From Endomicrobium sp. (GTDB lineage Bacteria; Elusimicrobiota; Endomicrobiia; Endomicrobiales; Endomicrobiaceae): a DNA stretch of 40,528 nucleotides. A model generated the notes under the pieces. The model was not told where the DNA came from, did no database searches, and worked only from the letters and a program-made list of their open reading frames with translations. The stretch's first letter is position 1; each line of letters begins with the position of its first letter. Shown piece by piece: positions 15,433 to 17,703 of the stretch. The translations under genes were made by a program, and so were the position numbers. The stretch spans positions 1 through 40,528 of the forward strand of contig JAITTL010000002.1 of assembly GCA_031286985.1 (NCBI GenBank), given 5' to 3'.

Positions 15433-17703
15433 ATGAAGAATAATAAAGAAAAAAAAGATATGGTGATGAGGGAAATGATTTTTAGATTAGTAAACAGGAA
15501 GAAAAGGTTTTTAGTGATTTTGAGTATGATGTGTATGATAGGGCTTGGTATATCAAGGGGTCGTTTGGCTTTGTCGCAGAATGAGAATAATTGGCTGCAG
15601 AAGGAGCAGCAGCAGCCGTGGCACCAGCAGTACCTGCGGCGGCAGCGGATCATACAGCCGCCATGGCAGCCGCTGCTGTATGAGCGGTGGAATCTGACGA
15701 AGGATCAGAAGCAGAGGTTTATGTCGATACATGATGAGTGGAAGTGGCCGAATATTAAGCGGGGTCTTGAGCGGAAGTTTAAACAGAATGCTAGAGCTAA
15801 TAATGGTGGGTGGCCCCCCGCGCCGCCGCAAGATGATTATTATGATTCTGATGGGGCATCCCCTTATGATGATTGGGAACCCCCTTATGATGATGGGGCA
15901 CCCCCCCCGCCGCCGCAGCAACAACAGCAGCAACAACAGCAGCAGGAACAGGAACAACAACAACAACAACAGCAGCAACAACAGCAGGAGCAACAACAGC
16001 AGCAGCAACAGCAACAGCAGGAGCAGCAACAGCAGCAACAGCAACAGCAACAACAGCAACAGCAACAACAGCAACAGCAACAGCAACAACAGCAGCAACA
16101 ACAACAGCAGCAACAGCAGGAGCAGCAACAACAGCAACAACCAGCAGCAGCAATAGAAGCAGGAGAAGGACAAGAAGAAGTAACACAAACAGTGCAGCTA
16201 TCAGCAGCACCAGTAGTGCAACAACGGCAGCAACAACCAGCAGCAACAGAAAAAGAAGGAGAGGTAGAAGCAGCAGAAGTAGGGGAAGGGGAATCAGAAG
16301 AAGAAGGAGTAGGAGGAGAAGTGGGAGCGACACCAGTAGTGCAGCAACAGCAGCAACAGGAGCAGCAACAACCAGCAGTAAGAGAAGATGAAGGAGAAGA
16401 AGCAACAGCAGCAGTACAGCAACAACAACTAACAGAGCAAGAAGAAGAAGCAATAAATGAAGTAGCATGGATAATAGAAGAGCAGTTTGAGGAAAAGGCA
16501 AAGGTAATGGAGTTAGAAGGGATGATGAGAAGAAGGAGTAAAGAGGCAGTTGAAGAGACAGAAGAGTGGAAGAAAGAGATGATGAAAGAGGTAAGAGAAA
16601 GCAAAGGATGGGATGAAGGTATAGAGGAGATGAAAAAGCTGGTGGATATAAACAAAAGTATAGAGGGGAAGGGAGGAGTAGTGCCAGAAGAGCAAAAGAG
16701 AACGGAGTCAGGGAGAGGCGAAGCGGAATGGAGTTTAGGATTTGTGGGGAACATGATAAGGAGCGTAGGGAGTGTAAGTTATGGGGAGGAAGTATTTAGA
16801 GAGATGGTGAGAGTGGTAAAAGAGGAAGAAGAGAAGGGAGGGAGGTGGAAGGTATACGGGAAAGGGAAGTATAAGCAGATAACATTAGAAGGGACAGAGA
16901 AGTCGCCCGGGGAACATAAGGACAGTCAGGTAGGAGGAGTAATAGGAGTAACGAGATGGTTGGGGGAAGAAGATAGAGGATTTATGATAGGGGCGTTTGT
17001 AGGGATAGATATTCATAGTATGACACAAAAGGGAAAGGATGGAGATGGAAAAACGGTTTCAGGAAAAGAAAGCAAAGGTAGAGCAGCAAGTGGAGTGTTA
17101 GGATTGTGTGGAGGATATATAGATCCGAGGTTTGAGGTGAGGATGTTGATAAGAGGAAGGTTAAATGAGTACAAAGTGGAGAAATTACTTGGGAAGTTTT
17201 GTTCTGGTAAGTTTAATGGTATGGGGATAGGAGGAGAGTTAGAGGGGAAGTATAAGATAAAAGTGAGCGAGAGGATAGTTACAGGTCCGTGGATAGGAAT
17301 GGAAGCATCGGCAGAGAGTTATGACGAAGATAACGAAAAGATGATAATAAAGAAGGGAGATTACAGCAGGGCGTTATTAGGAGTAGGCTGGGAAGTAAGT
17401 GCGAAGGTGGGAGAGGTAGGAGTAGTGGGGTTAAGAGCAGGATACAGGAGATTGTTGAGTGGAGAGATACCGAAGATAAAGATAGGAGAGGAATCGAAGA
17501 AGAAAAAGGGAGTGGGGAACGTAGGAGGAAAGGGAACAGAAGAAGGAAAGGGAACAGAAGAAGGAAAAGACATAGGAGAAGTAGCATTAGGGTTAAGTTT
17601 AGATTTAGGGAAAGGGTTTGGGACATCAGTGATGGTGAAATATGCTGTAGCCGAACACTTTCAGGACATAGGTGCAAATTTAGGATTTAATTATAAGTTT
17701 TAG
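15433..17703 (+). CDS. Poly-glutamine surface protein with C-terminal autotransporter-like beta-barrel
   Basis: This 756-residue protein has five parts: a basic N-terminus with a hydrophobic core (FLVILSMMCMIGLGI, about residues 26-40), a likely signal sequence; an Asp/Pro/Tyr-rich stretch with repeats of YDDW/YDDG and PPPPP; about 75 nearly pure Gln residues (162-236); an Ala/Gln/Glu-rich charged region to about 470 with APVVQQ/TPVVQQ repeats; and a Gly-rich region from about 497 to the end with alternating strands, closing in GANLGFNYKF. A terminal Phe after such strands is the outer-membrane barrel signature, so export through the outer membrane is inferred. The coding strand is strongly purine-biased, unlike its neighbours. 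A purine-rich SD (GGAGGGAGAAGG) precedes the ATG; a second in-frame Met at 15475 would give a more usual signal peptide. A strong terminator follows. The function is unknown; adhesion to a host is a guess. Confidence 0.8.
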   Translation: MKNNKEKKDMVMREMIFRLVNRKKRFLVILSMMCMIGLGISRGRLALSQNENNWLQKEQQQPWHQQYLRRQRIIQPPWQPLLYERWNLTKDQKQRFMSIHDEWKWPNIKRGLERKFKQNARANNGGWPPAPPQDDYYDSDGASPYDDWEPPYDDGAPPPPPQQQQQQQQQQEQEQQQQQQQQQQQEQQQQQQQQQQEQQQQQQQQQQQQQQQQQQQQQQQQQQQQQQQQEQQQQQQPAAAIEAGEGQEEVTQTVQLSAAPVVQQRQQQPAATEKEGEVEAAEVGEGESEEEGVGGEVGATPVVQQQQQQEQQQPAVREDEGEEATAAVQQQQLTEQEEEAINEVAWIIEEQFEEKAKVMELEGMMRRRSKEAVEETEEWKKEMMKEVRESKGWDEGIEEMKKLVDINKSIEGKGGVVPEEQKRTESGRGEAEWSLGFVGNMIRSVGSVSYGEEVFREMVRVVKEEEEKGGRWKVYGKGKYKQITLEGTEKSPGEHKDSQVGGVIGVTRWLGEEDRGFMIGAFVGIDIHSMTQKGKDGDGKTVSGKESKGRAASGVLGLCGGYIDPRFEVRMLIRGRLNEYKVEKLLGKFCSGKFNGMGIGGELEGKYKIKVSERIVTGPWIGMEASAESYDEDNEKMIIKKGDYSRALLGVGWEVSAKVGEVGVVGLRAGYRRLLSGEIPKIKIGEESKKKKGVGNVGGKGTEEGKGTEEGKDIGEVALGLSLDLGKGFGTSVMVKYAVAEHFQDIGANLGFNYKF
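15916..16140 (+). repeat. CAG/CAA glutamine-codon repeat
   Basis: The 225 bases hold 75 consecutive codons that are almost all CAG or CAA, with a few GAG/GAA. CAG and CAA are mixed irregularly rather than in a uniform array, which reduces slippage but still allows in-frame length change by recombination. Shorter Gln runs recur at about 16219-16240 and 16339-16374. Confidence 0.95.
17530..17565 (+). repeat. Two tandem 18-bp in-frame units
   Basis: Two identical copies (17530-17547 and 17548-17565) encode KGTEEG twice. They sit in a predicted loop between barrel strands. The length is a multiple of three, so copy-number change keeps the frame. Confidence 0.85.

Follow-up and report, generated by a model that had tools for sequence, protein, structure and literature searches.

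The window (the whole 40,528-nucleotide stretch of DNA that was analyzed; GC content 34.5%) contains a gene for a protein of 756 residues in which a signal-like N-terminus, a polyglutamine (polyQ) tract and a C-terminal barrel follow one another. The gene is internal to the 40.5-kb contig, between uvrA on one side and tRNA-Lys, tRNA-Glu and purA, which come just after its end, on the other. Seven congeners with the same tRNA pair have other genes upstream of it and no match to the barrel of the polyQ gene, so its location is lineage-specific. The features of the gene are listed below.

15433..17703, + strand: predicted polyQ autotransporter gene, 756 amino acids, open over 756 codons, with a PF03797 match
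15433..15576, + strand: signal-peptide-like N-terminus (residues 1–48); the DNA of residues ∼14–42 resembles paralogues
15577..15762, + strand: passenger block rich in Q, W, R and P (residues 49–110); third codon base G in 73%
15763..15915, + strand: passenger block rich in D, Y and P, with five terminal prolines (residues 111–161); T-rich third base
15916..16140, + strand: polyglutamine tract (residues 162–236), 70 Q and 5 E
16141..16437, + strand: linker rich in Q, E and A (residues 237–335); third base A in 80%
16438..16722, + strand: acidic stalk (residues 336–430), predicted to be helical
16723..17700, + strand: autotransporter beta-domain (residues 431–756), helices followed by a 12-strand barrel with a C-terminal Phe; resembles paralogues

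Putative export signal and barrel

The N-terminus of the polyQ protein carries seven net positive charges, followed by the hydrophobic core LVILSMMCMIGL (mean Kyte-Doolittle value of 2.6) and a plausible cleavage region, GISRGRLALS↓Q. The same pattern of basic stretch, hydrophobic core and cleavage region recurs in the paralogues. The C-terminal part matches PF03797 with 48.2 bits (cut-off of 26; E = 1.5e-12), and its sequence profile matches the solved EspP barrels with E ∼1e-8. An AlphaFold2 model of the C-terminus, for which 31 related barrels served as input, contained a 12-strand barrel with helices ahead of it, and most pLDDT values in the strands exceeded 90 (the pTM of 0.70 applies to a construct that includes the loose stalk). 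When the PDB was searched with this barrel model, the best 15 matches were all autotransporters, headed by EstA (PDB 3kvn). The protein ends in ...GFNYKF, and all paralogues with an intact C-terminus also end in F. A BamA-type Omp85 protein is encoded elsewhere in the genome (PF01103 at C28:15142-16152, E = 1.3e-47). Barrel relatives were not found in plasmid records. By its barrel, predicted fold and domain order, the polyQ protein is assigned to the type Va autotransporters. The first-pass annotation had described an export signal, a tract of ∼75 glutamines and a C-terminal autotransporter-like barrel; the reading frame and the tract were confirmed, the N-terminus is signal-like, and the profile match and the confidently modeled barrel uphold the C-terminal assignment. 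We consider this architecture well supported.

Composition of the tract and of the passenger blocks

The tract comprises solely 70 Gln and 5 Glu residues (75 residues as assembled), with a longest pure Gln run of 32, and further Gln runs are found at residues 304–313 and 329–332. Since Gln accounts for just 2.5% of the residues encoded by 20 neighboring genes, the tract is not a product of chance. Its codons are 35 CAA, 35 CAG, 3 GAG and 2 GAA. Position 2 is A in 75 of the 75 codons, position 1 is changed in only five, all of them to Glu codons, and position 3 is an even mixture of A and G. The order of CAA and CAG is not distinguishable from random (runs test P ∼0.2; no significant lag), lag analysis gave no repeat unit inside the tract, and the longest exact repeat within it is 32 bp. 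The random codon order rules out fresh slippage of a single codon as its origin. If the tract began as one codon, the contrast between positions 1 and 2 and position 3 indicates that Gln was kept by selection, which is what the mixed CAG/CAA codons had suggested at first reading; a mixed ancestral codon unit would weaken this argument. Opposite-strand open frames over the tract are a by-product of CAR codons, and among the frames that cross it only the + frame continues into the homologous barrel.

Runs of at least 12 consecutive CAR codons occurred in this gene only when the source genome and 60 relatives were searched, and in the phylum as a whole, 4 of the 341 genomes had runs of at least 20. 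Such a tract is thus rare, as had been claimed for bacteria at large, but not unique. A second strain carrying the polyQ gene was not found among the genomes searched. In two of the other three genomes with long CAR runs, the run encodes 32–34 Gln within a long open frame (32 and 34 residues in L132 and L134, by eye outside this barrel family), and in the third it lies in a frame of 89 residues.

The single occurrence, with no congener carrying the tract, the reduced genome and the existence of damaged relatives of the gene would fit a neutral or mildly harmful expansion that is tolerated in an endosymbiont with a small population, on a barrel and display system that are real. Under this explanation, however, one would have to account for an intact frame, for the retention of Gln at the first two codon positions against a fully mixed third position, and for the lack of a pure-codon slippage signature. 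We regard neutral expansion as a serious rival, albeit an unlikely one.

The synonymous sites of the gene are unusual beyond the tract. At fourfold sites, A+G reaches 86%, as compared with 47% in the 20 neighboring genes and 51% in an EF-Tu/ribosomal cluster. The mRNA of the barrel folds much more weakly than synonymous versions do (mean of −8.9 versus −17.6 kcal/mol per 120 nt, z = 8.2), and in the same folding test three neighboring genes gave z values between 0.1 and −1.1. Purine-rich synonymous sites and weakly structured mRNA characterize the barrel (positions 16735–17700 of the window) as well as family members, some of those in congeners included (L084, L088, L095 and L096), and the bias is absent from ribosomal genes. 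Codon adaptation of highly expressed genes was rejected as its cause because the EF-Tu/ribosomal cluster lacks it.

The dominant third base changes from block to block: it is G in 76% of codons at residues 46–95 and A in 84% at residues 241–290, and C reaches up to 82% in an Ala-rich block of a paralogue on contig C6. In the background, none of 803 windows exceeded 56%. The Ala-rich passenger block of C6 (L012:1117-2904) spans ∼600 residues, with 70% C and 2–4% G at the third base, and has a GC content of 61–64% in a genome near 34%. Horizontal transfer was rejected as the sole source of this composition, as 70% C with 2–4% G is implausible as genome-wide codon usage. Lag autocorrelation supported a repeat origin for residues 237–335 and 111–161 of the polyQ protein and for the blocks of C6 and C28, and did not support it in others, the polyQ tract included. 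We infer that passengers may originate as triplet-type sequence, with later divergence mostly at the second codon position.

A barrel family with constant ends and unrelated passengers

The polyQ gene belongs to a family, which the first-pass annotation did not contain because its recognition needs the rest of the genome. A profile of the barrel gave 27 matches in the source genome versus 0–6 in its congeners; the 24 searched genomes of other families had no match. Counted by C-termini, there are about 20 family loci, nine with the main barrel part and 11 C-terminal pieces at contig ends. The DNA retrieved from the source genome for comparison comprised only regions surrounding family members and control genes. 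PF03797 as such is present in 13 of the 14 genera of the bacterial family; within the small-genome genus it is missing from many members, and the highest number, 11, is found in this genome. DNA of the signal region and barrel is conserved between the polyQ gene and its paralogues (95% over 139 bp to C4 and 84% over 1,025 bp to C28), while similarity ends near the start of the barrel, low-complexity stretches excepted. The member on C11 is a chimera that combines a signal region from C4 (93% DNA identity) with a stalk segment of C29 (95%). Further members with informative N-terminal parts or passengers are listed below.

39220..40527 of the window, + strand: second family member, N-terminal part, truncated by the contig end; positions 39498–39581 have 75% DNA identity to the polyQ signal region
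L016:2766-4613, − strand: intact member with a DUF1810 passenger and a 42-bp repeat array ahead of the barrel
L020:195-1858: NUDIX-barrel fusion; the frame is lost within the barrel, and the last barrel part is in another frame
L026:1-1545, − strand: macro (PF01661) passenger at a contig end, with NAAN...GGGGV motifs kept, out of frame with the signal
L014:1-1008, − strand: macro (PF01661) passenger at a contig end, with the signal present and an altered loop

The passengers of the paralogues are unrelated to one another and include polyQ, Pro/Thr/Glu repeats, coiled-coil-like stretches, the Ala-rich block, DUF1810 (E = 1e-44), NUDIX (E = 3e-8) and macro domains (E = 8e-27 and 2e-19). The 42-bp repeat array in a family passenger encodes units of the KESAPPIGSAPPGP type. 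The polyQ tract is thus one among several compositionally extreme passenger blocks attached to this barrel. Folded from its single sequence, the DUF1810 member reached a pLDDT of 35, too low to be informative. In congeners, DUF1810 and macro proteins were seen by eye to have signal-like or lipobox-like N-termini and are predicted to be lipoproteins or secreted, which suggests that exporting such domains is a recurring feature of the genus. Some members of the family are damaged (the NUDIX copy and one macro copy), and decay also acts on it. At the start of contig C26, a secreted-looking glycosyl hydrolase family 18 gene (L024:380-1426) adjoins a family fragment.

By our own count, 19 of the 68 contig ends lie inside family members, which indicates that near-identical copies probably broke the assembly; a mixture of strains in the sample could have added to these breaks. 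The same struggle of the assembler might be taken to mean that a misassembly produced the tract or its junction with the barrel. The polyQ copy, however, is internal to its contig with the frame intact, and since exact repeats within the tract do not exceed 32 bp, an assembler using k >32 would have met no ambiguity. We therefore hold an artefact to be very improbable.

Possible role and relation to known autotransporters

The genome is 0.98 Mb in size; congeners range from 0.2 to 1.4 Mb, and other genera of the bacterial family are mostly 1.3–2.4 Mb. Members of Endomicrobiellum, with a genome of 1.13 Mb and 32.3% GC, are endosymbionts of termite gut flagellates, lack glutamine synthetase and rely on host glutamine (PMC11257099). 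The source bacterium is most likely an Endomicrobiellum-like endosymbiont of termite-gut protists, and the presumption of a symbiont made from the window sequence agrees with the genome size, the GC content and the structure seen in relatives. If the assignment to Endomicrobiellum is right, a Gln-rich protein would represent a notable cost.

On balance, we favor, with considerable reservation, the interpretation that the gene encodes a type-Va-like display platform with a functional polyQ segment and belongs to a family that recombines and is specific to the lineage, and most of the doubt concerns the role of the tract, not the platform. The protein would be exported by Sec, its barrel would be inserted into the outer membrane by BamA, and the unfolded passenger would be threaded to the outside and remain anchored through the helical stalk. 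The polyQ passenger may have grown from triplet-type sequence (CAR codons) and then been held by selection for Gln. Facing the host cell, it could act as an extended, flexible and sticky segment that attaches to host components or to neighboring symbiont cells; surface exposure, host contact and self-association, which the first-pass annotation had also considered, are presumed. Exchange of passengers by recombination in the shared ends would permit fast change of the surface.

The tract might instead be a mere spacer or stalk that holds functional residues 49–161 off the membrane, with the identity of Gln of minor importance beyond being flexible and hydrophilic. It does have the N-terminal block on one side and the helical stalk on the other, and other members place Pro/Thr/Glu or 42-bp-array repeats in a like position. 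However, a spacer would hardly need to consist almost exclusively of Gln, and residues 49–161 match no known family in Pfam. We judge the plain spacer to be a serious rival as well, and slightly less probable than neutral expansion.

Beyond a display platform with a functional polyQ segment, a broader scheme can be drawn, which we put forward as speculative and rather doubtful. It comprises a recombining platform whose passengers derive both from de novo triplet-type growth (CAR, GNA, GNC and CNG blocks, of which polyQ is the purest) and from captured domains, namely macro and NUDIX, which are of the nucleotide/ADP-ribose type, and DUF1810. On the surface of the symbiont, these domains could recognize or undo ADP-ribosylation by the host. 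If they face the host cytoplasm, they would suggest that protist and endosymbiont engage in an exchange based on ADP-ribose, and if passengers arise from triplet-type sequence, the family would offer a place to watch the birth of protein segments. The polyQ protein itself would be a natural case of long polyQ apparently exported by a bacterium, in a family that swaps surface domains onto one anchor. In the open-access literature searched, no paper was found that combines Endomicrobium with autotransporters, and no macrodomain-autotransporter fusion was reported by title and abstract.

Among characterized proteins, EstA of Pseudomonas aeruginosa is the closest in barrel fold and shares the order of signal (putative in the polyQ protein), passenger and barrel as well as a passenger that is not a beta-helix; its passenger, however, is a folded esterase, whereas that of the polyQ protein is low-complexity polyQ with no recognized domain. 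The self-associating autotransporters AIDA-I and Ag43 share the barrel fold (AIDA-I, PDB 4mee, was among the fold matches), and domain shuffling is reported for Ag43 variants (PMC10058404). The passengers of Ag43 are related variants of one fold, in contrast to the unrelated passengers found here, and the passenger of the polyQ protein, which is of low complexity and matched no Pfam passenger family, is not a beta-helix. Chlamydia-type polymorphic membrane proteins (PF02415 repeats with PF03797) likewise form a large and variable family of PF03797 autotransporters. In a Pfam search, PF02415 repeats were absent from the polyQ protein; they are present in the passengers of several congeners. The Sca autotransporters of Rickettsia, which are reported from bacteria that live inside host cells (PMC3415449, PMC10414592), occur in few copies and are comparable at the level of barrel class. 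The present family differs from these known kinds by its polyQ passenger, by the fact that close paralogues carry unrelated passengers and by the unusual composition of its passenger blocks. In congeners, the autotransporter barrels of L078 and L085 lie ahead of an OmpA-family domain (PF00691) and are thus not C-terminal.
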